Below are positions 5,856-38,350 of a DNA stretch of 64,000 nt, one piece after another. The position numbers were made by a program, and so were the translations under genes. Each line of letters opens with the position of its first letter. The first letter of the stretch is position 1. The stretch lies in assembly GCF_000158095.2 (NCBI RefSeq), contig NZ_CM011002.1:1007228-1071227 (forward strand), written 5' to 3'. The notes under the pieces are model-generated. The model made no database searches. It saw nothing but the letters and a program-made list of their open reading frames with translations, and was not told where the DNA came from. The stretch is from Roseibium alexandrii DFL-11. Its GTDB lineage: Bacteria; Pseudomonadota; Alphaproteobacteria; Rhizobiales; Stappiaceae.

Positions 5856-5871
5856 GTGGCTCCCTGAGTAG
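5856..5871 (-). repeat. Left attachment site (duplicated tRNA-Asn 3' end)
   Basis: GTGGCTCCCTGAGTAG is identical to 38335-38350, which covers the CCA end, discriminator, acceptor strand and first T-stem bases of tRNA-Asn. The match stops abruptly at 5872. It is typical of the displaced tRNA end left at the far side of an integrated element. Confidence 0.85.
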
Positions 5872-5955
5872 AATGCCAACCTTTCGATATAATTTTCATA
5901 AAGCACTGAAAAATAATAGCAAAGAAATTTGATAGATAATTTAGAAACCCCACTA

Positions 5956-5978
5956 TTTACCCCAAACTTACCCCAAAA
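5956..5978 (+). repeat. Left-end iterons, two TTACCCCAAA copies
   Basis: TTTACCCCAAA at 5956 and CTTACCCCAAAA at 5967 are 11 bp apart, one helical turn. The same motif is repeated four times next to the integrase at 38193-38237. They are good candidates for arm-type integrase binding sites. Confidence 0.65.
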
Positions 5979-6987
5979 GATTTTTGTTGGATTGCGACGG
6001 GGCGATGAAATCAGAGCTTTTCAAGTCGTGTTGTTTGAGAGTTTCGGAGACCGAATTGCAAACCGGCGGTCTTGCCGTGGCCGATGTTGGAGAATCACCC
6101 CATGCCAATACAGTTTGGCATGCCATGCCAACCACAGTGGGCATGCATAAGAACAGTATTTATAAAACAACATTGTCTGATGAAAACGAGCTCAATCGCT
6201 CAAGCAATGGCTACACTCCTCGTGATCGAAATGGGGTTCGGTAAGAGCTGTTCTTGATCAGTTGCAGGATGGTTCTACTTGAAATTGCTTTGACGCGAAT
6301 ATGGCTGATTTCAATGTGAGTAGGCATGTATCTCAACAATCTCAAAGTCTTATGAAGTAATTCCCAAAGATCGCATCAATCGGTAAACCTCTGTCCGACG
6401 AGGATACTAAGCGCGACCAGAAACAAAAATTTGGTTGGTTCGGATTTCCTGAATGCGAGGAAAAAGATACAATATTTCAACTGCATGCGACTTGGAGCAG
6501 GTCGCTTGAACGCAAGTAAGAAGTCGCTTCAGTTGGCTAATGCACAGCTTTTGGGGGATCCGGGGGTTGATTTAGTGCGACACTAAACGTTAGGGATTCA
6601 TCAGTCTCAATAAGTGCGCCACCGGGCAACCGGGCGGCGCATTTTTCGTTTTAGTGCATCTAGTGCCGGGGAGGCGGGAATGTTGGATCAATCTCAAAAC
6701 CGAGATCATTTAGGCAGCATCGGGCAGAGCGAGCACATGAGATGTGGCCAGAAAAACGCGCGGGTCCTTTCAGGTCGTTATCTGTCCCACGAGGTCATTC
6801 GCCATCCCGGGACACGGACGCACGTGGTGTTCGCCGAAGTGTCAGGTTCATGGTCAGGGTCATGTTGATATTGATTGGGATGCGAAAAGCTTTAACGAGT
6901 AAGTGCAGTGATGACTTCGAATTCCTTGCCGGCTCCGGCGCTTCTTCCATCTGATCGCAGATATCCTAAGTCACTTAGATATAGGGT
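5979..6987. other. Gene-poor left flank of the island
   Basis: About 1 kb with no convincing gene. It holds a perfect 8-bp inverted repeat CATGCCAA/TTGGCATG (6101-6122), a 7-bp palindrome TTTAGTG-CGA-CACTAAA (6571-6587) that could be an operator, and a terminator at 6615. Small frames at 5929-6257 and 6614-6954 overlap one another and have no recognisable product. Confidence 0.45.
6615..6647 (+). terminator. Rho-independent terminator-like hairpin
   Basis: TGCGCC(A)CCGG...CCGG(GC)GGCGCA forms a GC-rich stem closed at 6641 and followed directly by TTTTTCGTTTT. No gene is seen upstream of it, so it may end a small RNA or be the tail of a lost gene. Confidence 0.6.
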
Positions 6988-7710
6988 TTATTGTTTAGAC
7001 CAAGCGCGAAGACGCCGAGCGGCGGCACGGCCGACGGTGATCGGTTCGCCTTGACCCTTTAGGGTGACCGCCTGCTTTCCAGCCTCCGCGTGCCTGATCG
7101 TTCTGATGGCAGCGCGGTTCATGATTAAGAACCGGGAAATACGCACGAAATCGGGATGCTCAATATCCGCTTCAAATTGTCCCAACCTCTTGCTCACCAG
7201 TATCTCTCTCTCGTGGGTGAGGTGAATACGCGTGTAATCGCCCTCAGCCTGAAGCATTGCAATATCGCGTAGCACCAGGAACTGAATTGTACCATCCACA
7301 CGGATCGTGACCCGTTGTTCGTCACTAGCAACTGCCTTTGCTTCCAAGTGCAGTTTGTTCAACCTGAGGCGATCAATTGCCCGTTTTAACCGATCGGGCT
7401 CGACCGGTTTTAAAAGGTAATCGACAGCGCCATGGTCAAAGGCCTGGACAGCGTGGTCGGCATGCGCAGTTACAAAAACGATTTGGATTTGGCTCTGCTT
7501 GCCATCCAAGAGTGCAAAACCATTTGGGCGATCCTGTCCGAGGTTTATGTCGAGGAAGACTGCGTCGGGGGAAAGGGCTTTGAGTTGCGAACTGGCTTCT
7601 GCCAGGTTCGCAGCCGCTCCGACGACCTCCACGTCGTCGTGTGAGGCGCACATACGGCTGAGCAACCGTCGGGCTGGGGGCTCGTCATCCACGACTATTA
7701 GGCGAAGCAT
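6988..7710 (-). CDS. LytTR-family response regulator
   Basis: A 240-residue two-component response regulator. The receiver domain covers residues 1-120, with the acidic pair D8-D9, phospho-acceptor D54 (in AVFLDINLG), T81 and K101 all in place. Residues 130-238 form a LytTR DNA-binding domain (RDIAMLQAEGDYTRIHL, then FVRISRFLIMNRAAI), typical of the AlgR/LytR class. It overlaps the 3' end of the sensor kinase gene by 13 bases, so the two are translated together. The neighbouring divergent gene is a giant autotransporter whose upstream region carries a LytTR-like direct-repeat pair, so it is the obvious candidate target. Confidence 0.92.
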   Translation of the reverse strand: MLRLIVVDDEPPARRLLSRMCASHDDVEVVGAAANLAEASSQLKALSPDAVFLDINLGQDRPNGFALLDGKQSQIQIVFVTAHADHAVQAFDHGAVDYLLKPVEPDRLKRAIDRLRLNKLHLEAKAVASDEQRVTIRVDGTIQFLVLRDIAMLQAEGDYTRIHLTHEREILVSKRLGQFEADIEHPDFVRISRFLIMNRAAIRTIRHAEAGKQAVTLKGQGEPITVGRAAARRLRAWSKQ

Positions 7711-8831
7711 GGTTCACCTTGGAGTTGGAGCTCAACGACCACGTCGTCTTTGTCAGGGCGGAGCTGAAGTTGATGACGCGATGGAAAGTGTACATCAAGC
7801 CGACGGCGAAGATTAGCAAGGCCAATGCCTGTATCAGTCTTGCCCGGGACCAGTTGTCCCTTGTTTTTTACTTGTAGGATCAGGACCTCGTCATCGCTCA
7901 GGGCTGACACCCGAAGTTTTAAATCCGAGGAAGCGCCGTGCTTAAACGCATTTTCTACCAGAACCTGGAGTGTCCAGCGAGGTAAAAGGTGTTCTGCAGC
8001 AGAGCCCGAGACATCGAGCTCCATCCGAAAAGGTAATTCAAAGCGGCCTTCCTGGATCTTTAAATAGGTGTGTAGACTATCGATCTCCTCACCCAAAGAG
8101 CAGACTGGGTGCTGATGCTGTTCCAGGTTATGGCGCAGAAAAGCAGCTGTGTTGCGGGTCATGTCTAGCGCAACTTCAGGATTGTCGTGAATCTCCGCCG
8201 CAATGGTGTTCAGTGCATTGTACAGAAAATGTGGATCTAGTTGTGTGCGCAGATGATTCAGTTCAGCGCGTGTTGCATTGTTTTCAGCGAGAATGCGCCT
8301 TGTTTCGGCTGCTCGGGCTCTGCTCCACGACATCGTCCAGGCATAGAGCGATACCCAACTTACCAGGATCGCAAAATAGTAGGCACCGGGAATCGCTGCC
8401 ACATCTCCGTCGCGCCATGGGAGAGTCTTGCCAAAACCCGCAAGGATTCCACCACCAATTGCTGCCAGCGCGATAGCCGCAACGATACAAAAAATCAAAC
8501 CCAATACTGCGAAACGTGGGCCGAATATCTTAACACCCAAACGGGACACAGTCAGATGAAACCCGGCTGTGATGGCGTATGCGAGGGGGTCGAGCACCAA
8601 CGTCATTGTCGCGGCAAGTGCCGTATCATTGAACAAAATAACGCGCGCGCCGAACCCGAATGTGGCCAGGAAAATCCAGACGGTCGTGTGTGCCTTCAGC
8701 AGAGGAAAGCCAACATCATCTGGGGTCAGGCCAGTTCCGTTGAGTGCCCCGTGTTCAGCGGAAGAACGCGGATCAAGCTGAAACGCGCCCATGGGGTTCT
8801 CGGTGCGCGTTATTAGGTCTATCAATTTCAT
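7698..8831 (-). CDS. LytS/YehU-type sensor histidine kinase
   Basis: A 377-residue membrane histidine kinase. The N-terminal half has about four hydrophobic segments (near 48-66, 72-94, 106-132, 148-168) and no periplasmic sensor domain of note. The His_kinase domain follows with phospho-accepting H201 in LRTQLDPHFLYNALNTI, the family hallmark. The ATPase domain shows the N box LVENAFKHGASSD and the G box DTGIGLANLRRRL. It is the first gene of the pair with the LytTR regulator. The signal is unknown; membrane or envelope state is an inference from the autotransporter next door. Confidence 0.92.
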   Translation of the reverse strand: MKLIDLITRTENPMGAFQLDPRSSAEHGALNGTGLTPDDVGFPLLKAHTTVWIFLATFGFGARVILFNDTALAATMTLVLDPLAYAITAGFHLTVSRLGVKIFGPRFAVLGLIFCIVAAIALAAIGGGILAGFGKTLPWRDGDVAAIPGAYYFAILVSWVSLYAWTMSWSRARAAETRRILAENNATRAELNHLRTQLDPHFLYNALNTIAAEIHDNPEVALDMTRNTAAFLRHNLEQHQHPVCSLGEEIDSLHTYLKIQEGRFELPFRMELDVSGSAAEHLLPRWTLQVLVENAFKHGASSDLKLRVSALSDDEVLILQVKNKGQLVPGKTDTGIGLANLRRRLDVHFPSRHQLQLRPDKDDVVVELQLQGEPCFA

Positions 8832-9085: not shown

Positions 9086-12000
9086 ATGACATATCGCATG
9101 TTGACGGCTTGCCATTGGCAGGATCGCAATAGTTTCGGTCAGGTCCTTTGCCTTGGTGCAGGCAAGGTGGGATTGCTCGTCTCAACATCCGCACTCGCCC
9201 TGCTCATGTCCAGCCCGCTCCTGGCCGATGACTGTTCGGGATCTGTAACCTACGGCGATGCAAGCTGCACGCTGAATGCTGGGACCACCGACGGCGTTTC
9301 CATTGTCCAGTTCGGTTTCCAATCCGGAAACACAATGACCTTGGTCAACAACGCAACACTTTCGCAAAATACGGACACAGCAAACCACAACGAGAACAGC
9401 AACGAGCTGTTTCTTGATTTCTTCGGGTTGAACGGCACGACCGATGACGGTGTCAACGGCACTCAAGGGCCGCAGATTTCGGTCACGAACAACGGGGACA
9501 TTACAACCTCGGGCACCTCGTCTCAGCAGGATACGGTGACCGAAGTCGCGCCAATCGAAATCTTCAGTTTTGGTGGCAACGGTGCCGAGCCGGGTAACAA
9601 TGCAACCGGTGGAACCGGTGCCGAGGGCGGCATTGTGAGCGTCACCAACAATGCGAACATTCTGCTTGAGCAATCCGCGACCCTAGACGTTTCCGCGCAA
9701 TTGAGGGGCATCCGGGCACACAGCGTTGGCGGAGATGGCGGTGATGAAAACCCGAGTTATGTCTTTGGAGATCAGCTTGGCGGCCCGGCGGGAGATGGAA
9801 ACCAGGTCACCGTGACGAATGCGGCCGGCGGCACAGTTACGCTCGGCAGTGAGAGTGCGCCCGTGTTCGGCAGCAATCTCGGCCGTGGGATTGAGGCGGT
9901 AAGCCAGGGGGGCACGGGTGGCCAGGACAATGGTCCAGGTGGAGCCGGCGGGACGGTCACACTCACCAACAATGGCTCCGTCAGCGTGTACTACAGCGAA
10001 CTGGCGGCCGGAAACGACGGGGTGTCTGGACTCTACGCCCGCAGCGATGGGGGGGATGGCACAGCGTCGTTTGACAACGATGATGACGGCGGGGACGGCG
10101 CATCAGCCGGGACGGTTACTGTCACCAACTCAGGGTCCGTCCGCGTGGATACGTCTGAAACGGCAAATGCGATTGGGGGCTATCAAGCCGGGATCTTTGC
10201 CGAGTCGATTGCTGGAAACGGCGGCGCGTCGTCCAACAAGGCTGCCGGTGGCGTTGGTGGCGCAGCCGGATCGGTCACCGCCGGCAATACGGGTTCTATC
10301 GTGACGATAGGGTCCGGGGTGGCCGGTGTCATGGCCCGGTCTGTCGGCGGCGTCGGCGGGAACGGCAATGGCGATTCAGATTCGACCGGTGGTGCCGGGG
10401 GAACCGGCGGCAATATTCAGGTGAACCTCGGCGGATCTGTCTCGACGGGCGGGCGGGAAGCCTACGGCGTGATTGGTCAATCGGTGGGCGGTCTGGGTGG
10501 CGGAAATGCCGGTACCGGTGGCCGCGGAGCAAATGGTGGGACGGTCGGCCTTTTCAGCAACTCGGGGACTGTCACAACCAGCGGCGATCTTGCGTCGGGG
10601 ATCACCTTGCATTCGATCGGCGGTGGCGGCGGCACCGGCGAGGACTTTACCGGGGTGCTGGCCGGATCCGGCGGCAACGGGGGCAATGGGGGCAACGCTG
10701 GCAAGGTGGAAATAACTTCTGCCACCGGGGTAACAACAAGTGGTGACTACGCAACTGGTCTGGTCGCGCAATCCATCGGTGGATCCGGGGGGACGGGCGG
10801 CATCGGCGCGGGGCTTGTGCTTGGCCTTGGCGGTGATGGCGGCGGAGGTGGCGCGGCCGGAAATGCCATTGTCAACAACACTGGCAATCTGGTCATGACC
10901 GGATACGGATCGGGTGCCATTGTGGTCCAGTCGATCAGCGGCGGCGGCGGCTTGGCCGGCATGGACGGCGGCGCATTGTCAATTGGCGGTCAGGCGGGCA
11001 GCGGGTCGAATGGCGCGCGCGCGTATGCCACCAACAATGGCGATATCACAACCAGCGGCGATGCCTCTACCGGGATTTCTGTCCAGTCCATCGGGGGCGG
11101 CGGAGGTTCGGCTGCAGGCAGCGCCGGTATATTTGTCGTTGGCGGTTCAGGCTCTGCCGGTGGCAATGGCGGCGAGGCTGAGGCCTATCACGTCGGGGGG
11201 CAGATCACGACGGCGGGCGAGTTCTCCCACGGGATTTCAGTCCAGTCCATCGGCGGCGGCGGCGGCTCCGGGGGTAACGTGTTCGATCTGTCTGTTGCCA
11301 ATGTCGGCCGCGGCGGTGTCGGGGGCGATGGCAGCGTCGGTGGCAATGGCGGATCGGTGTGCCTTACCGATGTGTATGACACGAGCATAGGCTGCTCGAC
11401 TGCGCCCAGCGACAGCGGATCGAAAGCCGCTCAAGCGAGTTCTTCCGGCATCCTGACGACGGGCGATTTCTCCGTCGGGGCGATGGCGCAATCCGTCGGC
11501 GGTGGCGGCGGCAACGGCGGGTCCGCGACCGGGGTCGACATTGCGTCCATTACAAATATCCAGATCGGAGCGTCCGGCAGCGCGGGCGGTAACGGCGGCA
11601 CGGTTCGCATGGCGTTCAACCAGCTGCAGCTGGAGACCAGAGGAAACAATGCGCAGGGCCTTATCAGCCAATCCATAGGCGGAGGTGGCGGAAACGGGGG
11701 CAACGCCTTGAACGGGGGAGCCGTGACGCTTGTTCCGGTTCAGGTGGGCGGCAGTTCCGGCATCGGCGGTGATGGCGGAGAGGTGACCACAGTGCTCGAT
11801 GGCTCGTTTCTCGTGACCCGGGGGGCTAGCTCGGCGGGGGTCGTCAGCCAGTCGGTCGGTGGCGGCGGAGGCACGGGGGGCTCGGCAACCGGTTATAACG
11901 GCAGCATCGGTGTCAGCATAGATACGGCAGTTGGCGGCACGGGAGGACCGGGTGGCGACGGGCAGGCCGCAAGTGTCGTAGTGAGCCAGACCACCATTGG

Positions 12001-15000
12001 AACCGGTTTCAACTTTGCACCAGGCGAGCCGATGCCCGATGAATCGGCAACAGACTCCCATGGTATTGTCGCCCAGGCCATTGGCGGCGGCGGTGGTGTC
12101 GGCGGAACGGCAACGGCCGATGCCGTCACTTTGGCCGCCCCAACTGGCGAGGACGTCTCCTTCGCAGTTTCTATTTCGACCGCCGTCGGCGGCTCGGGTG
12201 GCGTCGGCGGCAATGGGGCGTATGTCGGTGTTGGTCTCCGAGGCGGCAGCTCCGTCCTTACTGGAGGGGACGGCGCCATAGGGATCCTGGCCCAGTCGGT
12301 GGGTGGCGGCGGCGGTGATGGCGGCGGCGCGTCCTCGCTTTCAGATACAATCGGAGATGCCAATACGATCTCGCTCGATATAAGCACCAGCATTGGGGGT
12401 GATGGCGGAAGCGGTGGAAACTCCGATGTCGTTGTCATCGGCCTCGATGAAGATACATTTGTCGAAACGTTTGGCGACCATGCCAACGCGGTTGTGGCCC
12501 AGTCGATCAGCGGTGGCGGCGGCAATGGCGGGGTTGGCAGCGCCTCCAGCAACAAGATCGGAGGCGGGTTTAACGCGTCTCTGGACATAGGCGTGGGCGG
12601 GTCTGGGGGAACCTCCGGTTCAAATGACACCGTCACCGTCGAACTTGCATCCGGCGCATCCATCCGCACGCATGGAGCCAACGCCCACGGTCTTGTGGCC
12701 CAGGCCATTACAGGCGGTGGCGGCACCAGCCAGGGGGGCAATATCGGACTGTCGGCTTCTGCCGGTGTTGGTGGCGAAGGGGAAGGCGAGGGTGGAACCG
12801 GTGGTGAAGAGGACGAGACCGAGATTTCCGGAAGCGTCAATGTCAGTGTCGGTAGGACCGGTGGGGGTAGCGTGACCGCCGGGTATGTCGATCTGGCAAC
12901 CGGTGGGATGATTTCAACCGACGGAGGCGATTCAGACGGCATCATTGCGCAATCGATTGGCGGATCCGGCGGGATCGGGGGATCTGCCGGAAGCGATGCG
13001 GGCGATGAAGGCGACGACGGCAACGGATTTCTTGGAGGTGACGATGAAACAAGCTATGCGCTTACAGCCTCTGCTGGCGGCACAGGCGGTACCGGCGGGG
13101 ACGGTGGCGATATCGGTCTGACCCACACCGGAACCGTAACCACGCTGGGAGACTGGTCTGACGGGATCGTTCTGCAATCCATCGGCGGCGGCGGCGGCAC
13201 GGCCGGTACCGCCACCGCGGCGGGCAGCGGTGCAACCGCCACGGTGGATCTTGCCATTGGCGGTACCGGCGGAACAGGCGGGAGCGGGGGCGCGATTACA
13301 GCCAGCTTCACGGGTGGCAGTTCAGCGGTTTCCACGAAAGGTCACGCTGCGCACGGCGTTCTCATCCAAAGCATCGGTGGCGGCGGAGGTCACGGCGCTG
13401 ACGGATCGGATTCGGCAACTGCGACAATTGCTGTCGGCGGCGGACTTGGCGGTGGTGGAGGTGCGTCGGGGCATGGCGGCCAGATCACCGTGACCGGGGA
13501 CATGCTCACGGTCTCCACACAGGGCAATGATGCCTTTGCACTTGCCGCACAGTCGATTGGGGGCGGAGGCGGCACCGCTGGAGCGGGCAGCAGCAAAGCC
13601 TCGGATGACGATGACAGCCACAGCTTCGAGCTGTCCGTGGGCGGCAATGGCGGCGGCGGCGGCGGTGGCAACACGGTCAGCATTGACAGCGGAGTCACCC
13701 TCTCAACGTCGGGTGACCGGGCATTCGGTATTCTAGCGCAGTCGATCGGGGGCGGAGGCGGTGTCTCCGGCAGCGCCGATGGCGCCAGTATCAAAAAACT
13801 GAACATCAACGGCACCAGCGGGGCAACAGGTGACGGTGGGGCCGTTTCCATCACCCTGGAACAAGGATCGGGCATCACAACGGCCGGGCGCGGGGCGCAT
13901 GCCATCGTCGCCCAATCGATTGGCGGCGGCGGCGGTATCGTGGGAGACACCAGCCGGGCATTCACAAATGGCGCTATCCTGATCAACCCCGGTGACGGGA
14001 TCGGCGGCGCAGTGACTATGGATGTCAATGCCGATATCACTACGACAGGGAACGGCGCATTCGGCATCTTGGCTCAGTCGATTGGCGGCGGGGGCGGCCT
14101 TGCCGGAGACAGAAACGGTGTGTTTGCCGGCAGCAGCGCGTCTGGCACCACAACCGGCAGCGGCAGCGGCGGTGCGGTTTCGGTCACCCAATCCGGAACC
14201 ATCGCCGCAAGTGGCGCGGGCTCAATCGGTATCTATGCCCAAAGCACGGGTTATGGCGAGAGCAGCCAACCCATCAGCATTCAGATCAACGGCACCGTAA
14301 CCGGTGGCACGGGCGACAGCTCGAGCGCGACGCAGACGGTTGGCGGTACATCCGCCAACACGCTCCAAGTGACGGCCGATGCCTTGGTGGTGGCTGGCAC
14401 CGGAGGTCATGCCATCCGGCACGAAATCCGGGAAACGGGCGGGGCTTCGGCATCGAGCACACTGCTCGTGGACAACACCGGCACCATTGACGGTTCCATC
14501 TCACTGCATGAGGCAAATGGCCCAGTCCTGGGCCTCATACAAAACCACGCAAGCGGGACCTTGCGGGGAGCGACACAATATGCCGGTCACATGACCAATG
14601 CCGGTATCGCTCAAATCGGCGATAAAGGTGCCAATGGGACGACGCGGCTAACCGGCAACTTCAGCCAGGAACAGAGCGGGACGTTGCAAGTCGGCGTGGA
14701 CTTCGTCGGCGCGCGCAGCGATATCTTTTCGGTCGAAGGGGATGCGGCTCTCGCGGGATACCTGTCTGTAAACCCGGGCACCTTGGCGCCTAATGTCGAG
14801 CTGGACGTGGTGACTATTGCCGGGACGGTCACGGGGGACGTTGTAGCCGCCGAAAATCCTGCGGTGATCTACAATGTTCGCAGGGAAAACAACACCATCA
14901 AGGTATCGGCAACGGATACGCGTTTTGAAAGCGCGTTTGCCGCCATCAATGGCAACCAACGCAATGTTGGTGCGTATATGGATACTCTCTTCGATACCAG

Positions 15001-16801: not shown

Positions 16802-17593
16802 TCAGGCCCCTTTATATATCGGCGTCCGGCGAGCAATCCATGCATCAAGACCTTCAATAACGTCTTTTGTGGCTGCCATTCGAGCGAATTGTTCCCGCTC
16901 GATGAGAAGGCCTTCTTCTATGGTTGTGTTCAAACCTCTTGTGACAGCAGAAATAATTCTCGATGCTGCAAGGGGAGAATGTCGGAGCACACGGTCTGCC
17001 AGATCAATTGCGGCCGGAAGCAACTCATTATGTGGAACGACTTTGTTGACCAACCCGAGTTCATACGCTCGCTGGGCTGAGAATGTGTCTCCAGTTAACA
17101 ACAATTCCAGAGCTCGTTTCCGACCTGCAAGACGTGATAATCGCTGCGTGCCTCCAAACGTCGGCGGGATACCGATGTTAATCTCGGGCTTGGCAAACAC
17201 GGCTTCTTCACTTGCTACTGCCAAATGAACCGCTTCCGTTATTTCACAACCGCCTCCAAATGCGACGCCATTTACGGCTGCGATTATGGGTTTCGGAAAG
17301 GCTTCCAGGCGCGCCGTCATGGTCTGCCCACGCTTGCAGAACTCTCTGACGGCAACCTCCACATCTTCTTTGATGCTTTCAGTGAATTCGTGAATGTCGC
17401 CGCCCGCTGAAAATGCTCGATCACCAGCACCGGTAATAACAACAGCACCAATACCGCGGTTTTGTTCTATCTCGTCGAGGAGCGCCAACATCTGATCATT
17501 GGTTTTATAGTTCAAGGCATTGAGTTTCTCAGGGCGGTTTAGCGTGAGAATGGCCACCCGGTCCTTCTGCTCAAAAAGTATGTTGGTTTGCAT
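16802..17593 (-). CDS. Enoyl-CoA hydratase/isomerase family protein (crotonase)
   Basis: A 263-residue crotonase-fold enzyme, normal length. Family marks are LNRPEKLNAL near residue 18, the oxyanion-hole segments GDRAFSAGGDI and NGVAFGGGCEI, and the catalytic-region motif KPEINIGIPPTFGGTQRL, with glutamates in the usual hydratase positions. It probably hydrates or isomerises an acyl-CoA, but the substrate cannot be read from sequence. It is divergent from a TetR regulator gene 77 bases away, which suggests local control. It is alone in its operon. Confidence 0.9.
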   Translation of the reverse strand: MQTNILFEQKDRVAILTLNRPEKLNALNYKTNDQMLALLDEIEQNRGIGAVVITGAGDRAFSAGGDIHEFTESIKEDVEVAVREFCKRGQTMTARLEAFPKPIIAAVNGVAFGGGCEITEAVHLAVASEEAVFAKPEINIGIPPTFGGTQRLSRLAGRKRALELLLTGDTFSAQRAYELGLVNKVVPHNELLPAAIDLADRVLRHSPLAASRIISAVTRGLNTTIEEGLLIEREQFARMAATKDVIEGLDAWIARRTPIYKGA

Positions 17594-17645
17594 GTCAGCT
17601 TCTCCTGCTTGTTACGTTGACTTAACGCTACAAATCGTGAGAGAC

Positions 17646-17657
17646 TGAGTAAACTCA
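17646..17657. promoter_or_regulatory. Palindrome TGAGTAAACTCA, candidate TetR operator
   Basis: TGAGT-AA-ACTCA is a perfect 5-2-5 palindrome, 13 bases upstream of the TetR start and 53 upstream of the crotonase start. This is the usual place for an autoregulatory operator serving both divergent genes. Confidence 0.4.
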
Positions 17658-17670
17658 CTGGTTAGTATAC

Positions 17671-28631: not shown

Positions 28632-28647
28632 GCCACAATCCCAGCAT

Positions 28648-28698
28648 CTAACATGTTACATGTTGGAATTTATTGCTAAATACCATGTAACATGTTAG
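28648..28698. promoter_or_regulatory. Paired GntR operator, inverted 15-mers with TAACATGTTA cores
   Basis: CTAACATGTTACATG (28648-28662) and CATGTAACATGTTAG (28684-28698) are exact inverted copies 21 bases apart, each with the palindrome TAACATGTTA. They fill the gap between the divergent FAD-dehydrogenase and GntR genes, so they are strong candidates for the GntR binding sites controlling both. Confidence 0.7.
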
Positions 28699-28732
28699 GA
28701 TTCAAGCTGAGCTGAACCAGCACGGTGGACGG

Positions 28733-29437
28733 ATGAAAGAAATTTTTGACAGGATTGTTCCAGCGCCCTCTTTGACGGAAGTGACCGCCAACCGCATTCG
28801 CGACGCGATTACCACAGGAGATCTGCCACTGGGTCACAAACTGTCGGAGCAGCGTCTGGCGGACATGCTCGGCGTCAGCAGATCTCCTGTCCATGACGCC
28901 CTCGCGATCCTGCAGTCCGAAGGGCTTGTCAACATTTCGCCAAAGCGCGGCTCTTACGTCTTTACGCCGGACCTGAAAGAGGTGGACAACATTTGTGAAC
29001 ACCGCGCCCTTTTGGAAACCGGGTCGGTCAGGCGGGCCATCGCCCGCAACAAAGACAAGCTGGTAGCGGGATTGCAGTCCTGCGTGGACGAAATGGAAGA
29101 AGCGCTGCGGGTAAACAGTTCAACTGACTACACCCGGGGCGATCTGCGTTTTCACGAAACAATCGTGCGCGCGAGCTGCAACCGCTCCATTGCCTCAGCT
29201 TACAAGCGGACCATCAGCCCGCTGATAGCGCTGCGCACGCACCTGTTTACTATCATGAACGCCAATATCGAGCGTTCACTGGACGAACATGTGGAACTGC
29301 TCGATGCCTGCAAGCGTGGCGATGCCGACCTAGCGGCGGCACTGCTGGAAGACCACATCGGCCATCTGATCGAAGCCTATCGTCAAGAACTCTCAAGCCA
29401 GACCGGGTTTGAAGATGCAATCACCGCCAGCCGATAG
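28733..29437 (+). CDS. GntR family regulator (FadR subfamily)
   Basis: A 234-residue regulator with an N-terminal GntR winged helix-turn-helix (NRIRDAITTGDLPLGHKLSEQRLADMLGVSRSPVHDALAILQSEGLV) and an FCD effector domain, where the metal-binding residues Asp and three His appear as in RGDLRFHETIV and later DEHVELLDAC and EDHIGHL. It sits head to head with the 2-hydroxyacid dehydrogenase gene. The two inverted 15-mers upstream are its probable sites. FCD regulators usually respond to small organic acids, in keeping with the dehydrogenase. Confidence 0.9.
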   Translation: MKEIFDRIVPAPSLTEVTANRIRDAITTGDLPLGHKLSEQRLADMLGVSRSPVHDALAILQSEGLVNISPKRGSYVFTPDLKEVDNICEHRALLETGSVRRAIARNKDKLVAGLQSCVDEMEEALRVNSSTDYTRGDLRFHETIVRASCNRSIASAYKRTISPLIALRTHLFTIMNANIERSLDEHVELLDACKRGDADLAAALLEDHIGHLIEAYRQELSSQTGFEDAITASR

Positions 29438-29482
29438 TTATTTACCGAACTCCCTGACCTGACCGGATCGAAAGGCAATCTC

Positions 29483-29629
29483 GTGGAAACGTCCAACACA
29501 GACCATTTGGTCGATGCAATTGTGGCCAATGACGTTGATACCGTTTTTGGCATTCCCGGTGCACACACCTATGAATTGTCAGATGCGCTGCCACGCCGGT
29601 CGAACAAAATCCTTTTCATCCATATTTGA
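29483..29629 (+). pseudogene. N-terminal stump of a thiamine-pyrophosphate enzyme
   Basis: From the GTG at 29483 (AAAGG upstream) the frame reads VETSNTDHLVDAIVANDVDTVFGIPGAHTYELSDALPRR, the N-terminal pattern of acetolactate-synthase-like TPP enzymes, and then ends at a TGA after 48 codons where these proteins normally continue for 500 residues. It follows the GntR gene by 45 bases, so it was probably part of the same catabolic locus before truncation. Confidence 0.7.
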
Positions 29630-29753
29630 AGTATAAGGAGGAACTCAGCAGCTTTTTTAGCGTTTGCGGTGGCAACAGAGTAAGATCGCAAAAAATGAGA
29701 ACCACCATGAAGCGAAAATATCAGCGCACCATCGAAGATCTAAAAGATATGCT

Positions 29754-30638
29754 CTAATTCAATGCATCCCGCCATGAGTGCTTTGGTTCAAAACCGACGA
29801 TCCGCTTAGCTTTCTTGTTTGAGAAAAAGGTTTCGTTCTCATCCATTTCGCAACGCACTTCTACACCGTGATAGAACTGCTCAATCACTTGATCCGATGT
29901 GATGCCAACCGACATATCGTCGTTCGATACGTTAAATACTTGGTATCCCATTCCATCTGTTTTCAAGCAGCAGTCGACCATATGCCCCAAATCGCGGGCG
30001 TCGATATAGGCAAAAACGTTACGGCGACGCAGAGCCGGGTTTTCCATGAAAGCTGGGAACATCTCGGCATATTCATGCGGTTCAATTACATTATTAATCC
30101 GTAATCCATAAATGTCGGCGCCTGTACGAGCCTGAAAAGACCGCGCGGTAACCTCATTGCAGACTTTCGACATAGCATAGCTGTCATGCGGTACCGTTGG
30201 GTGGCTCTCATCAACCGGCACGAAATCGGGTTTTAACTCTCCGTCCGCAAAGCAAATGGCATAAGTCGTCTCAGAACTTGCAAAGATTACCTTGTGTACG
30301 CCCAGCTTCACTGCGGCCTCGATCACGTTATAGGTGGTCAAGGTATTCTGCCGAAAGCACTCGCCGTCTGTACCAATCATAACGCGGGGGATAGCCGCGA
30401 AGTGCACAACGGCGTCATAGGTCGGCACGCCGGTGCCAGCATCCAGTTCCGCGCCTTCAACGAATTGGGACATGGCACCAATGACCTGACCCGCATCGCA
30501 AAGGTCGATTAACAACTCCGGACAGTCAAGCCCAGAAGGTCTTCGATCCACGTTCACCACATGGTGGCCTTGCGCCTGCAAGTATTGGATTGCCCATTTA
30601 CCCGCCTTGCCGCTGCCACCTGTGAAAAAAACTCTCAT
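29754..30638 (-). CDS. NAD-dependent epimerase/dehydratase family protein
   Basis: Extended short-chain dehydrogenase, 294 residues. TGGSGKAGKWAIQYL is the cofactor GxxGxxG region, NVDRRP closes the second strand, VHFAAIPRVM follows, and the catalytic pair is in YAMSKVCNE. The C-terminal part is shorter than in sugar-nucleotide epimerases. Substrate unknown, probably a nucleotide sugar or related sugar. It stands alone, its 3' end 124 bases from the TPP-enzyme stump, and its codon use is more AT-rich than the flanking core. Confidence 0.85.
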   Translation of the reverse strand: MRVFFTGGSGKAGKWAIQYLQAQGHHVVNVDRRPSGLDCPELLIDLCDAGQVIGAMSQFVEGAELDAGTGVPTYDAVVHFAAIPRVMIGTDGECFRQNTLTTYNVIEAAVKLGVHKVIFASSETTYAICFADGELKPDFVPVDESHPTVPHDSYAMSKVCNEVTARSFQARTGADIYGLRINNVIEPHEYAEMFPAFMENPALRRRNVFAYIDARDLGHMVDCCLKTDGMGYQVFNVSNDDMSVGITSDQVIEQFYHGVEVRCEMDENETFFSNKKAKRIVGFEPKHSWRDALN

Positions 30639-31533
30639 CTTATCCCCCCATTTTTACCACCTGAGCGCCCTCTTCATTTGATCAGATGATGAACCATGGT
30701 TGGTTTTGATGGCAAGGCCTGGCCCGAGACCCAACCGATATTCGGAAAAGGCTGTGCAACTAATATGTCCATGTGGAAAAATTGAAAGCAAAACTATTTC
30801 GCTGGACTGGTTGTTATTTTGCAAAACGGCCATTCGTGCCAAGCGCGTCTAACGTTAGCCTCCGACCCTGACGAGAATTGGTTGAAAATGGCCCAAACCT
30901 GCCGTTTGCACCAGGCGCAGCAAAGGTCTGCTCCGAGCCAACAGGAGACCCCTGGAATTTTTGCTGTGCGCGCTCGCAGCATGGGTTTCGCCGCGATTGC
31001 CCAATTCTCATAATTGCAAAGTCTTGGAATGCCGGCCCTTCAAGCACCGTGCAGCGAAGAGTGTGTTGGAAATTCGCCCGTCACAGACAAAGTGACAATC
31101 AATTGTGTAAGCAGATCGCAGATTTGGTGCACTCTGTAGGGCTGAATTCAAGTCGCCTAAGACTTGCACATGTGAAGCGGCTTTGGCTTTGATTCTGCGG
31201 AGCAGGTGTGATCCTCCATGGCCGATATTTAGAATCGCACAGCTTTGGTGGCTGCGCAAAGACTATTCGATAACCCTCATGGATTTGCTGGCGTGAGCAA
31301 TGGTCCCGCCTTCCATGCCGTAGAAAACGCCAAATGTTTGACTACCCCGCTCCAGGCGGGTTTGGGTGCGCCTAACCTCTACCCCAATTCCGAAAATAAA
31401 TTCAGAAAAGTTCCAAAGCCGGGTATTGCCTAGCACGGAACGCGTACTTCGGAGCAATGCTCATGGGATACCGGAGTACCCGCCAATTGGCTTACGCAGA
31501 GGTTTGAATGTTTCACCGCGTGCGTATTCGACG
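30639..31533. other. Gene-poor 900-bp stretch
   Basis: No convincing gene. It contains one copy of a dispersed 28-mer (30822-30849). A minus-strand frame at 31263-31457 has no recognisable product. Probably decayed insertion DNA. Confidence 0.4.
30822..30849 (+). repeat. Dispersed repeat, copy 2
   Basis: CAAAACGGCCATTCGTGCC followed by AAGCGCGTC matches 25092-25119 at 24 of 28 positions. Confidence 0.45.
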
Positions 31534-32457
31534 CTACGCATCGCAATGGTTGAGTTGCGATCTGATCCACTGCGTTTGTGGATCAGAGTCATTTCGGCGA
31601 TGCCAGACAACCGAAACTGGAAAGGACGGGATGTCCAGAGGCGGTCTGCAGGTGACAAGGCCAAAGCGACCCGCAAAGGCCTCAGCCACGCGGGCCGGGA
31701 GGGTTATTAGCGCATCGGATGCCGCCGCAGCTGCAAGCGCTGGCACGAATGCGGGCAGCCCAAGTACGACCCGGCGCTGCCGTCCCAATTTTTCCAGGTG
31801 AGTGTCCACGACACCATGAAGCTGAGCACTTGGCGACGTCAGGATATGATCCATCGCGCAATAGGTCTCGAGATTGAGAGGTGTTTCTAAGGACAATGTC
31901 TGGGGACTTCCGGCGACAAGATAGGTGTCTTCGTAGAGGACCTCGGCCCGACAGGTCTTCGGCACGTTCCGGAAAAAACCCAGCGCCAGATCAACTTCGC
32001 CATCTTGCAATGACTGCATTGCCTCTCTACGGCCGCGCGGAACTACTGAGAGGTCAAGCCCCGGAGCTGTATTTCGAAGCCGTGCCGCCAAGGCGGGTAT
32101 GAGCACGGCTTGCTCGGCATGCATGGCCGCCAATCGCACCTGTCCTGTCGCTGTTCTCGGATCGAATGCGCGCGCGACACCAAGAGCCTGCCGTAGTGTC
32201 TCGACAGCGTTGGCGATTGGGGCCTGCAGGGCTAGGGCTGTGGCGGTCGGCTCCATACCGTGCGGACGGCGAAGGAATAACTCATCCCCAAATACCTCGC
32301 GCAATCGCTTCAAAGCCTGGCTGATCGCAGATTGCGTCAGGCCCAGTTCATGGGCCACATCCATCGCCTTGCGGTGTTTCAGCAAACCGAGGAACACCAA
32401 AAGCAGAGTTAAATCCAACCGCCGGAGTTCGGATTTACTTAATTCAGACATTAGCAT
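31534..32457 (-). CDS. LysR family transcriptional regulator
   Basis: A 307-residue LysR regulator with the DNA-binding domain at residues 8-70 (LRRLDLTLLLVFLGLLKHRKAMDVAHELGLTQSAISQALKRL) followed by a substrate-binding-like domain. It is divergent from the MBL-GST-ABM-DJ1 gene series, 110 bases away, and is the likely regulator of that operon. ATG at 32457 or 32451 could start it; they differ by two residues. Confidence 0.9.
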   Translation of the reverse strand: MLMSELSKSELRRLDLTLLLVFLGLLKHRKAMDVAHELGLTQSAISQALKRLREVFGDELFLRRPHGMEPTATALALQAPIANAVETLRQALGVARAFDPRTATGQVRLAAMHAEQAVLIPALAARLRNTAPGLDLSVVPRGRREAMQSLQDGEVDLALGFFRNVPKTCRAEVLYEDTYLVAGSPQTLSLETPLNLETYCAMDHILTSPSAQLHGVVDTHLEKLGRQRRVVLGLPAFVPALAAAAASDALITLPARVAEAFAGRFGLVTCRPPLDIPSFPVSVVWHRRNDSDPQTQWIRSQLNHCDA

Positions 32458-32567
32458 TATTCGTTATCACTTAATTCTGGTGAGCGGTAGTCAAAAGTTA
32501 ACAGTCCATCGGTTCGGCGGAGTGCTTCACTCTGATCCGCCCGACGCTTCGTTTTCAGGAGGTACCC

Positions 32568-33446
32568 ATGCAACTGCTAGATAGACGAACCTTCATGGCG
32601 CTTTCGGCGGCCACCGCCGCGACAACTCTTGCTGGGCCTGCGCGAGCCGCGAACGGTCGTGCGGACATCTTTACGGCCGACCTCTGGGGGGCAGCTGTGG
32701 ATAGTGCGATCATCGTCGGCGAGGAAAGCGCCGTGTTGATTGACGCGCAATTGACAGTGCCGAACGCCAATAGACTGGCGGATGTCATAGCGGCGACAGG
32801 AAAGACGCTTGAGACAATCTGCATCACACACGTTCACCCAGACCATCACCTGGGGCTGGCCGCGATCATGGATCGTTTCCCGGATGCGAAGCCGGTTGCG
32901 CATCCGCTGATACAATCTCAATTGTCGGCAGCGGCTCGCTGGATGCTCAGCACGATGTCTCAAGGTGCCGAACCCGGAACTTTCGCGGACCGCGTGGTCG
33001 TTCCCGCACCGATGACGAGCAATACGATCATACTCGAGGGCGAACGGATCGAAGTCCTTGAACCGATGCACGGCGACACGGACCTGCTAACGGCGGTGCA
33101 CATTCCCGCACTCGATACACTGATCGCCAGCGACTTTCTGTATTCCGACACGCATCAATGGATGGCGGAAAACACGACACCTGAACGGCTGGCCCGGTGG
33201 CGCGCTAGCCTTGATCAACTCGAGGCCATAGGGGCCGGGACCATCGTGCCGGGGCACGAAGGTCCGGGTGCGGTGCGTGATTCATCCATCTTCGGTACGA
33301 CCCGCGCCTATATCGACCAATGGGAGGCGGGACTCGCAGAGACATCCAACGCCGAAGATCTGAAGGCCTCAATGCTGTCGGGCAATGAGGAGAAAGCCTT
33401 GGAATGGGTTCTGGACAGCTCTGTCGCCGCTGTCTACCCCAGCTGA
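32568..33446 (+). CDS. MBL-fold metallo-hydrolase with Tat-like signal
   Basis: A 292-residue metallo-beta-lactamase-fold hydrolase. The N-terminus DRRTFMALSAATAATTLAG has twin arginines and a cleavage region near ARA-AN, so export by Tat is likely. The zinc motif THVHPDHH gives H88, H90, D92 and H93; a further histidine is in MHGDTD and another in VPGHEG. AGGAGG precedes the ATG. It is the first gene of an operon with GST, an ABM-domain protein and a DJ-1-like protein. Members of this group degrade lactones or thioesters; the true substrate is not known. Confidence 0.88.
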   Translation: MQLLDRRTFMALSAATAATTLAGPARAANGRADIFTADLWGAAVDSAIIVGEESAVLIDAQLTVPNANRLADVIAATGKTLETICITHVHPDHHLGLAAIMDRFPDAKPVAHPLIQSQLSAAARWMLSTMSQGAEPGTFADRVVVPAPMTSNTIILEGERIEVLEPMHGDTDLLTAVHIPALDTLIASDFLYSDTHQWMAENTTPERLARWRASLDQLEAIGAGTIVPGHEGPGAVRDSSIFGTTRAYIDQWEAGLAETSNAEDLKASMLSGNEEKALEWVLDSSVAAVYPS

Positions 33447-33498
33447 AAATGAGAGTAGTTCGGGGCCGGATCGCGATGCAAATGAGACGAGGTGCGTA

Positions 33499-34200
33499 GT
33501 GTCTGCACTATCCGAGTTTCCAATTACAAACCGCTGGCCCCCCAGCGATCCCAGCGTGATCCAACTCTACGCTTTCCCGACACCCAATGGCGTGAAAGCC
33601 TCGATCGCACTGGAGGAGCTCGGATTGCCCTACGAGGCGCACCGCGTCACGCTGGCCGAAGCCGATGTCAAGAGTGAAGCGTTCCTGTCTCTTAATCCGA
33701 ACAACAAGATCCCTGCGATCATCGATCCGAATGGACCGGATGGTGCGCCGATCGCACTTTGGGAGTCTGGGGCAATCCTGATCTATCTTGCCGAGAAGAC
33801 GGATAAGCTTTTGGGCGCAACGGAAGCAAGCAGGTACCAAGTTCTAAAATGGCTGATGTTTCAGATGGGCGGCATTGGCCCGATGTTCGGCCAACTCGGT
33901 TTTTTTGTGAAGTTGGCAGGCACTGAAGTTCAGGATCCCTTGCCACGCGAGCGCTACGTCAACGAGGCGAAACGACTTCTCAACGTTGTCGAAAACGCAC
34001 TGGAGGGGCGTGAATGGATCGTAGAGGACTACTCCATCGCCGATATCGCGCTGGCGCCATGGTTGGGGATGATGGAGAACTACGAGGCGAAGGACCTCGT
34101 TGGATGGACTGAACTAAGGAACATCCCAGCATACCTTGAGAGGTTCAATGCGCGCCCGGCCGTGCAGGTCGGCCGCAATACGCCTCCACGCAATATCTAA
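33499..34200 (+). CDS. Glutathione S-transferase family protein
   Basis: A 233-residue GST of the YghU/Ure2-like type. VIQLYAFPTPNGVKASIALEELGLPYEAHRV is the thioredoxin-like N-terminal domain with an Asn in the active site, and NNKIPAIID is the glutathione-contact segment. The C-terminal helical domain has EGREWIVEDYSIADIALAPWL, the N-capping region. The open frame extends back to 33385 but overlaps the MBL gene; the GTG at 33499 with GAGG six bases upstream is the better start. Second gene of the LysR-controlled operon. Confidence 0.88.
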   Translation: MSALSEFPITNRWPPSDPSVIQLYAFPTPNGVKASIALEELGLPYEAHRVTLAEADVKSEAFLSLNPNNKIPAIIDPNGPDGAPIALWESGAILIYLAEKTDKLLGATEASRYQVLKWLMFQMGGIGPMFGQLGFFVKLAGTEVQDPLPRERYVNEAKRLLNVVENALEGREWIVEDYSIADIALAPWLGMMENYEAKDLVGWTELRNIPAYLERFNARPAVQVGRNTPPRNI

Positions 34201-34364
34201 GGCTGCATCGGGGATCTGTTGCGGTCGTTCCGCGCCACCACTCACAGGAACCACCGGGTTGACCAACACTAGTGCGACGCCAGAACACGAGCCTATCCGT
34301 TTCTGGGCAGTTGGCGCAGACTGGCGAAGGCAGATGACCAGCCCCAAAACCTGAGGCGCGCGAC

Positions 34365-34919
34365 ATGAGCGACACAGTCACCATCGTTGTTCGGCAATAC
34401 GTCAAACCGGGCCATGAAGAGGCTTACGAGGCTTGGTTGAAACGGATGACCGAGGGGGCCCAGGCGAATTTTCCCGGTTATCTGGGTGTGGGATTTCATC
34501 GCCCCGAAAAAACCGGCGGCCACTATCGCCAGATCTTCCGCTTTGACAGCATCGACCAACTGGAAGAGTTCGAGCGTTCCGAGTACCGGGCGAAGATGCT
34601 GGCCGAGGGGTCCAAACACTTTGCCACCGACCCGACACTGGAACGGATGACCGGGCTCGAGTTCTGGTTTGATCCCCCGCTTGGCACGAGGGTGGCGCAG
34701 CCCAGCCCTCATCGTATGGCAATGGTCATGATTGCGGTTGTGTTCACAATGATCCTAATCCTCAGCACTACGATCACCGCGCTAACACCGCATTGGCCGC
34801 AACCGCTGCGCCTGCTGCTGACGGTCTGCATCCAGGTCACGCTGATGACATACGTGGTTATGCCATGGCTGACGCCACGCATTGCCAGATTTGTTTATCC
34901 AAAATCAGAAACCGTTTAG
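34365..34919 (+). CDS. ABM-domain protein with two C-terminal membrane helices
   Basis: Residues 1-100 are an antibiotic-biosynthesis-monooxygenase-like ferredoxin fold (VTIVVRQYVKPGHEEAYEAWLKRM, then FPGYLGVGFHRP). Residues about 115-140 and 148-165 are hydrophobic helices, and the tail MPWLTPRIARFVYP is conserved in a second, decayed copy at 35785. So this is a membrane-anchored ABM protein of 184 residues. Catalysis is unproven. It follows the GST gene by 160 bases and precedes the DJ-1-like gene by 17. Confidence 0.82.
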   Translation: MSDTVTIVVRQYVKPGHEEAYEAWLKRMTEGAQANFPGYLGVGFHRPEKTGGHYRQIFRFDSIDQLEEFERSEYRAKMLAEGSKHFATDPTLERMTGLEFWFDPPLGTRVAQPSPHRMAMVMIAVVFTMILILSTTITALTPHWPQPLRLLLTVCIQVTLMTYVVMPWLTPRIARFVYPKSETV

Positions 34920-34936
34920 TTTGAAAGGAATACCGC

Positions 34937-35674
34937 ATGTCTGATGCCGCTGATTTTCCAAGCAAAAAGAGGGTGCTTATCATTGCCGGCAACCCCGGCA
35001 CCTCACCGGTAACCGGGTGGCCTGTCGGCTTCTGGTTCTCCGAGTTAAGCCATCCATATTGGACTTTCGTCGAGGCTGGTTACGATGTCGATATTGCTTC
35101 ACCGGCCGGCGGCGATCTTGTTCCCGACGGCATGTCGGATCCGGAAGATGAGAGTGGCTATTCGGCGCATGACCTGATCTCGCTCGGGTTCAAGAAATCG
35201 GAAAAGCATGCAGCGCTGTTGAAGGGAACGAAACCGACCAACGAGATTGACCCGGTAGCGTATGACGCGATCCTTGTTGCGGGCGGCGGGTCGCCTATGG
35301 TGACAATGATCGGCGACGATGACTTGCATGCGTTCGTGGCGCGCGCCTATGAGGCTGGAAAGATCGTCGCCTTGCTGTGCCACGGTACTTGCATCCTGCT
35401 TAAAACCCGGCTGTCCAATGGTGACCTGCTTGCCAAAGGTAAGACGTGGACAGGATTCGCGGACAGCGAAGAGACGTATGTCGAGGCCGCCGTCGGCCAA
35501 CCGTTTCAACCCTTCTGGATCGAAAAGGAAGCAAACAAGCTGGAAGACACCAATTTTATTGTCTCCGGAATGTGGAAACCGTTTGCCGTGCGCGACGGAA
35601 ACCTGATCACCGGGCAGCAGCAGGATTCCGGTTTTGCAACAGCCGAACTTGTCGTTCAGGCACTGGGCAAGTGA
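34937..35674 (+). CDS. DJ-1/PfpI family protein (type 1 glutamine amidotransferase-like)
   Basis: A 245-residue protein of the DJ-1/PfpI superfamily, close to the Hsp31/YajL type of chaperone/glyoxalase. The nucleophile-elbow segment is ALLCHGTC with C148, and SPAGGD and AGGGSPM are typical earlier turns. The nearby Asp and Glu of the triad cannot be fixed from sequence alone. AAAGGA precedes the start. As the last enzyme of a run with MBL and GST it points to detoxification of a reactive carbonyl or electrophile; that is inference. Confidence 0.88.
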   Translation: MSDAADFPSKKRVLIIAGNPGTSPVTGWPVGFWFSELSHPYWTFVEAGYDVDIASPAGGDLVPDGMSDPEDESGYSAHDLISLGFKKSEKHAALLKGTKPTNEIDPVAYDAILVAGGGSPMVTMIGDDDLHAFVARAYEAGKIVALLCHGTCILLKTRLSNGDLLAKGKTWTGFADSEETYVEAAVGQPFQPFWIEKEANKLEDTNFIVSGMWKPFAVRDGNLITGQQQDSGFATAELVVQALGK

Positions 35675-36873: not shown

Positions 36874-38163
36874 CTAACCGTAAAACGCCAGTTTTTCGAT
36901 CACGGTCTTCTTGTGTTCCAATGTTGGGCCGGTGCCATAAACGGGCCGGTCGAACTTGTGGCCCATGAGCTCAGTTTGCATCCGGTCGGGAACGTCCAGG
37001 GCCGTCAAGCCATCCTGGAATGTATGCCGCAAACTGTAGAAGCTGTGGTTCGGGGTTTCGCGCAAATTGTGATCGGACAGGTACTTGTTGACCGCTGCCG
37101 AGAGGGATGATGTTTTTGCCATATAGCGGCGTTTTTTAAGCCCAACCAAAAGCCGCGCGCCGTCCAGGGCCGAACCGCACAACGGCACAATCCGTTTTGA
37201 ATATTTGGTTTTGATCTTCACCTTATCGTCGGGCTCAATGATCAAATGTGGAATGTCCGCGTCCAGGCGGAACTTCTCATTAGGTGCGCGGGCCGGTTCC
37301 GATGGCCGTGCGCCGGTACTGGCAACGATCATCAGAAGCGCGCGTGCTTCATCGTTCATGGACGCGATGCCCGGCAAGATCTTGTTTTTGATCCAATCAC
37401 GCGAGAACGGATATTTTTCGCCCTCAATCCCTTCGGAAAAGTAGGTGTCCTGGAAGGGCTTGATATGATCGATCCGGTGGAACTTGCACACGACGCGGTG
37501 CATCTTGTTGAGGTGCGTAAGGTCTTTGTTCGCCGTGGAAGGTTTCAGGCCGTCAACTTCGATCCGCTCCAACCACCAGTCGCGGAAATCCAGCGTGTGA
37601 AACTGGGAAATCTCGTCAATGTGACAATCACTGACAACCTTGATCCAGTTGGCAATTGCCCGTTTTTTGGGGTTTCTCCAAACCCGCATTTGATCGGCGT
37701 TTTTCCCTGTTGTTTCGTCCTTGGCGATCTTCTCATATTCCGCCAACAGGGCACCCATCTTGATCCGGGGTTTGTCTTCGGTGCCAAAAATCGCTTTGAA
37801 GTGTGCCGGGTTGTCCGGATCATTTCTTGCCAAGATATTCGCTCGTCGAACAAATTCGGCGGCGGGCAGTTGTATCACTTCGGAAAAGGGCCGGTATTCA
37901 ATGCCGAAAACCGACGCTAGATCGATCGCCGCGCGGTAGCGGTCATTGCTGTGAGCGCTGCCGCTTTTGACAAGGCTTGCCCAATAGGCCGTAACCCGCC
38001 GGTTGACTTCACCCGCTCGAACGACGGCTTCGGCATAATCTCGGGTTTTGAGGGCCTGGCGCACCCAGCGGCGGCGGTCAACCCATTTATAAGCGGCAGG
38101 TACAGCGCGTTGGAAGTGATACCAGTCACCTCGTTTTACGACATATCGTTTGTACTCGCTCAT
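36874..38163 (-). CDS. Tyrosine-type site-specific integrase (DUF6538 N-terminus)
   Basis: A 429-residue phage-type integrase. The N-terminal part (RGDWYHFQRAVPA, then TRDYAEAVVRAGEVNRR) is the DUF6538 arm/core domain of alphaproteobacterial island integrases. Catalytic residues are R286 in STGARPSE, a lysine near 320, R379 in YSLRHTF (with Tyr where the first His of HxxR usually is), H402 in LMGHK, and the nucleophile Y409 in PVYG. The gene starts 170 bases from the tRNA-Asn end, with iterons between them, and points away from the tRNA into the island. It should excise and insert the element at the tRNA 3' end. Confidence 0.93.
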   Translation of the reverse strand: MSEYKRYVVKRGDWYHFQRAVPAAYKWVDRRRWVRQALKTRDYAEAVVRAGEVNRRVTAYWASLVKSGSAHSNDRYRAAIDLASVFGIEYRPFSEVIQLPAAEFVRRANILARNDPDNPAHFKAIFGTEDKPRIKMGALLAEYEKIAKDETTGKNADQMRVWRNPKKRAIANWIKVVSDCHIDEISQFHTLDFRDWWLERIEVDGLKPSTANKDLTHLNKMHRVVCKFHRIDHIKPFQDTYFSEGIEGEKYPFSRDWIKNKILPGIASMNDEARALLMIVASTGARPSEPARAPNEKFRLDADIPHLIIEPDDKVKIKTKYSKRIVPLCGSALDGARLLVGLKKRRYMAKTSSLSAAVNKYLSDHNLRETPNHSFYSLRHTFQDGLTALDVPDRMQTELMGHKFDRPVYGTGPTLEHKKTVIEKLAFYG

Positions 38164-38192
38164 GATTGAGCCGATCAGATATGCGAGGCGCG

Positions 38193-38237
38193 CTTACCCC
38201 AAATTTACCCCAATATTTACCCCGTTCTTACCCCAAA
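38193..38237 (+). repeat. Integrase-end iterons, four TTACCCC copies
   Basis: CTTACCCCAAA (38193), TTTACCCCAAT (38204), TTTACCCCGTT (38216) and CTTACCCCAAA (38227) are spaced 11-12 bp. Two further copies lie at the other island end. They lie just upstream of the integrase gene and so could also control its expression. Confidence 0.65.
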
Positions 38238-38334
38238 TTACGGGATTTCAACCGGAAGTAAAAAGTTCGGGCGAAATTATTGGCGGAAAACAGCCGTTTT
38301 TGTCAAGGTGGTTGTTGGGGTGCAATTAGAAAGT

Positions 38335-38350
38335 GTGGCTCCCTGAGTAG
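38335..38350 (-). repeat. Right attachment site within tRNA-Asn
   Basis: GTGGCTCCCTGAGTAG, identical to 5856-5871, covers the 3' end of tRNA-Asn. Insertion here keeps the tRNA whole. Confidence 0.85.

Follow-up and report, generated by a model that had tools for sequence, protein, structure and literature searches.

Tycheposons and VEIMEs are marine, phage-carried integrative elements with cargo, a general description that the island below would share. Cos-type PICIs (EcCICFT073, SaPIbov4/5) are integrated islands that bear a helper-type cos site, in some cases two, and are packaged in helper particles (PMC6092414). In the usual view, satellites are about one third the size of their helper (PMC10803314, PMC6092414). 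PICMIs are marine satellites without capsid-remodelling genes, whose packaged DNA has the size of the helper's (PMC10803314). The I55-type islands of Pseudomonas combine an integrase, direct repeats and defence cargo, have no transfer genes and are transduced as a satellite (PMC12595487).

The locus studied here lies in a 64,000-bp stretch of the Roseibium alexandrii DFL-11 genome (G000, three contigs), hereafter the window (G000:C1:1007228-1071227), and is an island which we regard, at a probability of roughly 0.7, as a cos-type phage satellite of natural-cosmid build, moved by a Cronusvirus-like helper phage. As in cos-type PICIs, an integrated island carries what is, in our case, very probably a helper-type cos site. 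However, PICIs have roughly a third of the helper's genome length and possess a regulatory and replication module, whereas this island is close to full helper length (32.5 kb, against prophages of 33.7 and 38.6 kb) and almost all cargo; no regulatory or replication genes of its own were recognised in the window, while sister elements keep an initiator-like gene. With PICMIs it has in common a marine setting, the lack of capsid-remodelling genes and, if packaged as predicted, helper-sized DNA in the particle. PICMIs reach helper size as concatemers, need alpA, use a primase and have ends that suggest headful packaging, whereas such genes were not found in the island and, of the core alpA, int and primase, Pfam recognised only int. 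I55-type islands resemble it in their integrase, direct repeats and lack of transfer genes; they reside at tmRNA and are carried by a jumbo phage, and no island cos is described in the passages concerned (PMC12595487). The nearest phages are the Cronusvirus phages and the Roseibium prophages G029:C10 and G008:C5, which have a cos block before terS like the block in the island; the G029 prophage also shares the tRNA-Asn target, with an integrase 64% identical, but all of these are full phages, with structural genes for which no counterpart was found in the island. Among titles and abstract openings on phage satellites and related marine islands, a survey with most subscription papers outside its scope, none describes this class.

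Boundaries, target tRNA and integrase

The ends of the island and the features next to them are as follows (window coordinates).

5856..5871, reverse strand: left attachment site, a copy of the tRNA-Asn 3' end (exact 16-bp repeat; single copy at the G004 empty site)
5957..5974, forward strand: two TTACCCC repeats, probable arm-type integrase sites
6101..6145, no strand assigned: two palindromes, CATGCCA..TGGCATG
6574..6650, forward strand: terminator-like hairpin segment, common to the prophages of G029 and G008:C5
6758..6867, forward strand: very probable cos (packaging) site, from position in prophages and short conserved strings; 6793-6805 aligns with the 13-base cohesive end of RcCronus
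36874..38163, reverse strand: tyrosine integrase with DUF6538 domain (Pfam, PHROG)
38194..38239, forward strand: four TTACCCC repeats, probable arm-type integrase sites
38335..38350, reverse strand: right attachment site inside the tRNA-Asn 3' end (exact 16-bp repeat)
38336..38411, reverse strand: tRNA-Asn (GTT), the target gene

A first-pass annotation of this DNA had proposed a tRNA-targeting tyrosine-recombinase island with two visible ends, and the repeats, the tRNA, the integrase and the empty site all agree with it. The exact 16-bp repeat of the tRNA-Asn 3' end that it placed at 5856 and 38335 was found in both copies (GTGGCTCCCTGAGTAG, 5856-5871 and 38335-38350, 32,479 bp from copy to copy), against a chance expectation, by our own arithmetic, of ~3e-5 per 64 kb on two strands for one given 16-mer. 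The tRNA-proximal, inward-pointing integrase is likewise borne out, its ORF (36874-38163, reverse strand) starting ~0.17 kb from the tRNA 3' end. An empty site, for which the annotation had advised a search among relatives, is present in the related Roseibium genome G004, where the two flanks join at one intact tRNA-Asn without the island: window 13-5882 corresponds to G004:C11:491355-497217 and window 38329-47955 to G004:C11:497185-506805, both 91% identical, with one repeat copy, at 497191. The T-rich, trailer-like sequence seen to the left of 5856 also holds, since TTTTCTGGAAAAATGAG of the window resembles TTTTCTGGGAAAGAG, which precedes the tRNA 3' end in the G004 empty site. In G003 both flanks are 2.6 kb apart, with other DNA in between. 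The label 'binding protein' given to 4938-5705 was not confirmed, there being no Pfam match. To the right of the island, ahead of the cob genes, a cobalamin riboswitch is situated at 38741-38972.

The integrase matched the PHROG integrase family (E 9e-16) and Pfam DUF6538 above cut-off, and Pfam Phage_integrase under cut-off; its counterpart in G027 is 95% identical. The TTACCCC repeats of the left end also occur in G027, in G007 and beside other DUF6538 integrases, and are probably arm-type sites of the integrase. Nine of 14 loci with relatives of this integrase (L007-L017, L023-L025; own locus included) have a tRNA gene in the flank examined, of five kinds (Asn, Ser, Thr, Gly, Leu); the family targets several tRNA genes. 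The palindromes of the left module, perhaps an operator or an origin, are kept in G027, and one of them in G007. The string TAAGTGCGCC at 6611, which resembles the nick region of MOBQ oriTs, was rejected as an oriT, being one arm of the terminator-like hairpin and present in prophages too.

The annotation had seen no transfer genes, and none came to light: neither a relaxase nor mating-pair genes, which would define an ICE or conjugative element, had a Pfam match among 27 window ORFs (26 in the island), and no conjugation gene appeared in that scan or in the PHROG scan of nine ORFs. Its remark that the island would need help to move fits as well, and the likely kind of help is indicated by a feature absent from it, the phage cos site at 6758-6867.

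A very probable phage packaging site inside the left end

The 110-bp block at 6758-6867 lies 0.9 kb inside the left island end and forms the final part of the conserved left module; it also recurs elsewhere in Roseibium, outside copies of that module. An iterated profile search seeded with the window copy collected 35 block copies among 57 loci. Four Roseibium prophages or fragments carry it (G029, G008:C5 and two contigs of G031). The G029 prophage (G029:C10; 33,676 bp, at tRNA-Asn) has PHROG matches to minor tail, TerS, TerL, portal, major head, head-tail joining and tape-measure proteins. Here the block occupies the interval from the minor-tail gene to terS, and the same position is taken in G008:C5 and in the two G031 contigs, one of which is cut within terS. 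An IMG/VR contig with the same layout of minor-tail gene, block and terS is probably the G008 prophage itself. No such block was found near the more distant TerL (39%) of G013:C84.

The TerL and TerS of these prophages are ~45% and ~40% identical to their Cronusvirus counterparts, and the genome ends of RcCronus and vB_DshS-R4C are situated between the minor-tail gene and terS, preceded in both by the string CGGGTCCTT. The RcCronus record has 13 identical bases at its start and end, which align with GGTCATTCGCGAC of the block; the publications give a 13-base 5' overhang for RcCronus (PMC8601537) and a 14-base 5' overhang for R4C (PMC6836515). Profile scores across genera were modest (phi3LM21 E 2e-4, Psul1 0.004, Pben1 0.03; R4C and RcCronus not significant), and the cos identification therefore rests on position and short conserved strings, which make the block very probably a cos site. 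It would provide the island with the packaging signal of a helper phage, a function read from its position in prophages.

A sequence-only model of 26 copies, from which the window, G027:C46 and G007:C19 were left out, finds the window block at E 2e-23; these copies were first picked by likeness to the window, so that the test is not fully independent, and it is the prophage copies that tie the block to cos. The best hit of the model in 3.9 Mb of order-1 shuffled sequence had E 1.7, and 1.96 Mb of real sequence (overlapping regions included) gave 47 hits at E ≤1e-6. The cosB-like repeats are of TCAGG type in the window, and those of the four prophages differ.

Three other identities for the block were dropped: a structured RNA (no worthwhile consensus fold on either strand, and no Rfam match at 5800-7000), a protein-coding segment (the reading frame is broken between copies) and a dispersed REP-like repeat, abandoned once the block was seen before terS in prophages.

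The same ends with other cargo in another species

An element of 33,290 bp occupies tRNA-Asn in G027. It has 1.03 kb in common with the window at the left end (92.6% identity) and 1.7 kb at the right end (90.3%, extending through the tRNA), and no DNA in common in the island interior (blastn, pieces of at least 80 bp), while the chromosome past the tRNA is ~77% identical across the next 9 kb. Two shared ends at 90-93% beside a ~77% chromosome, around wholly different cargo, therefore show this to be a real, transferred element. The integrase pair has dN 0.027 and dS 0.46 (dN/dS 0.06), whereas all eight core genes tested past the tRNA have dS of 1.25-2.7, near saturation; judging from these values, the element moved between the lineages after their split and its integrase stayed under selection. 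A decayed copy in G007 has a 0.85-kb insertion in its left end, two TGA and one TAG in the integrase reading frame, and no tRNA found at its right end. In all three copies (window, G027, G007) the conserved left module stops at ~6866, and no plasmid or phage records carrying this module were found.

These comparisons bear on the possibility that the island is a prophage relic of the lambda-dgal kind, in which bacterial DNA replaced the structural genes and an immobile island kept its cos as a leftover. The decayed G007 copy, the terminator-like segment that the left module shares with prophages and the island's lack of any visible replication or excisionase gene would all suit such an origin. 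We nevertheless consider it unlikely, since the two species share the ends but not the cargo, the transfer postdates their split and the integrase has been under selection (dN/dS 0.06), and since this cos block is also retained in islands that have different integrases.

Cargo and missing phage genes

Between its ends the island carries the following.

6988..7710, reverse strand: LytTR response regulator (Pfam)
7698..8831, reverse strand: histidine kinase (Pfam)
9086..16033, forward strand: 2315-aa Gly-rich autotransporter-like protein (by eye; no Pfam or PHROG match)
16802..24624, no strand assigned: enoyl-CoA hydratase, TetR, sulfatase C-terminal piece, MFS, LysR, NmrA-like, DUF924, SnoaL-like (Pfam)
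27147..35674, no strand assigned: FAD-linked oxidase, GntR, epimerase, LysR, metallo-hydrolase fold, GST, ABM, DJ-1/PfpI (Pfam)

Overall this is a two-component system, an autotransporter-like protein, regulators, and transport and oxidoreductase genes. The match at 18304-19017 covers the C-terminal part of an aryl-sulfatase only, probably a broken gene. For the sole piece of cargo tested (20276-24624, 4.3 kb), just fragments of 28-234 bases occur elsewhere in 45 Roseibium genomes.

In Pfam and PHROG scans, which unrelated virion genes could escape, the island showed no gene for a terminase, capsid or tail, and among 28 proteins of the G029 prophage none but the integrase matched the window at E 1e-3; within these comparisons the island is an integrated element that lacks a complete virion gene set. 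By the same means no excisionase, replication or regulatory-module gene was recognised. A homologue of the prophage replication initiator lies beside cos in the sisters G008:C6, G008:C9, G003 and G013:C50, and the window is without it. The own genome has no terminase like those of the prophages (best match 24% identity, E 1e-4).

Sister cos sites and element sizes

The cos model gave 44 matches, in 13 of 45 Roseibium genomes; in a 297-genome sample of the order, under a stricter filter with 12 candidates scored per genome, it matched in two, both Roseibium. A related TerS or TerL lies within 1.5 kb of four of the 44 sites and is missing at 38, and two are at contig edges; the IMG/VR contig adds a fifth site with terminase, beyond the 44. 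The 38 do not equal a number of islands, for several stand in tandem in one element, others are close to the end of a contig, and the comparison would overlook an unrelated terminase. In the Roseibium genomes examined, cos sites without terminase outnumber those in prophages that could supply particles. In IMG/VR no stretch matched the window integrase or the strict cos pattern, and TerS led to one contig.

These counts also bear on another route, by conjugative mobilisation, transformation or unspecific transduction, with cos incidental. Many tRNA islands exist without phage sites, and particle transfer is here a prediction; but each of the three left-module copies retains cos, as do many other Roseibium islands, and the sole oriT-like string belongs to the terminator-like hairpin, which leaves such a route very improbable in our estimate.

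Sister cargo, judged visually on the N-terminal 50 residues of each called gene, includes polysaccharide-type genes (G008:C6, G003), restriction-type genes (G013, G008:C9) and metabolic genes (G013). A second cos site of the own genome (G000:C1:4104602-4135894; L128, L167, L168) is 31.2 kb from tRNA-Arg(CCT), with an integrase beside the tRNA and transport and catabolic-type genes between tRNA and cos; a left att was looked for and not found, and no convincing tRNA-Arg(cct) repeat was seen in G003. A 16.1-kb island at tRNA-Phe (G008:C9:2130-18306, L138) carries restriction-type genes and a pair of cos sites separated by 8.4 kb, and the genome in question, G008, also holds a full prophage with the same cos type. 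Tandem cos copies ~150 bp apart occur in G013:C51:56333-58270 (L140) and in L133, L134, L141 and L144. In L133 (G062:C10) and L136 (G014:C15) a cas3-like gene (by eye; type I-C guessed) starts ~0.1 kb from cos, pointing away.

Eight cos islands could be bounded.

32,479 bp: window, no related terminase
33,290 bp: G027:C46, no related terminase
33,471 bp: G008:C6, no related terminase
32,454 bp: G003:C2 at tRNA-Lys, no related terminase
34,349 bp and 16,239 bp: G013:C51, two islands, no related terminase
16,099 bp: G008:C9, no related terminase
~19.4 kb: G027:C69, if a 12-nt repeat is its end, no related terminase

Five of them measure 32.5-34.3 kb, two 16.1-16.2 kb and one ~19.4 kb, with prophages of 33,676 and 38,609 bp for comparison, which is suggestive of a one-unit and half-unit pattern. 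That packaging does not set the length and the sizes fell out by chance is a possibility to be taken seriously, if the less favoured one: the bounded islands are only eight, one of them of ~19.4 kb, G014 has a 28.6-kb tRNA-bounded piece without cos (a cos site lies just outside), and the own genome was sampled at seven of its 14 integrase matches, in other regions, with cos in none. Against chance stand the clustering of five and two islands in such narrow ranges and the lengths of the three cos-less tRNA-repeat islands of the own genome (8.8, 12.9 and 24.7 kb).

Proposed movement and its implications

The reading of the island as a phage satellite is supported by the empty site, the transferred ends with other cargo, the prophage-like cos, the lack of virion genes and the near-prophage length. 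On this evidence the island probably travels as cargo in phage particles and not by transfer genes of its own. During growth of a Cronusvirus-like cos phage in the host cell, the island would be excised; the helper terminase would cut island DNA at cos and package it at about one helper genome length, and after injection into a new cell the island's own integrase would insert it at tRNA-Asn. Replication is assumed to be supplied by the helper, because the island is without the initiator gene that several sisters keep beside cos. With a length of about one helper genome, neither capsid remodelling nor concatemers would be needed to fill the head. No close terminase of this kind is encoded in the island's own genome, so that an external helper is required; and because the window and the four prophages differ in their cosB-like repeats, the prophage terminases may be unable to act on the island, and the right helper possibly lies outside this set. 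Weighing against the satellite reading are the blank IMG/VR searches for integrase and strict cos, the missing excisionase and replication genes, the ~19.4-kb sister and the modest scores across genera.

More tentatively, and at a little below even odds, we propose that Roseibium has a class of natural cosmids, each consisting of an exchangeable integrase, a shared phage cos and at most ~30 kb of cargo of host type (genes for surface proteins, polysaccharides, restriction systems and metabolism); cos-to-cos packaging would keep their length close to one helper genome or half of one.

How an integrase island without transfer genes moves can be tested directly for this island and its sisters, given a packaging site, a candidate phage family and a possible length constraint. 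If ordinary phages of 33-38 kb carry islands that are one unit long and almost all cargo, the view that satellites are about one third of their helper would need widening, and cos sites could be used as a search key for hidden satellites.
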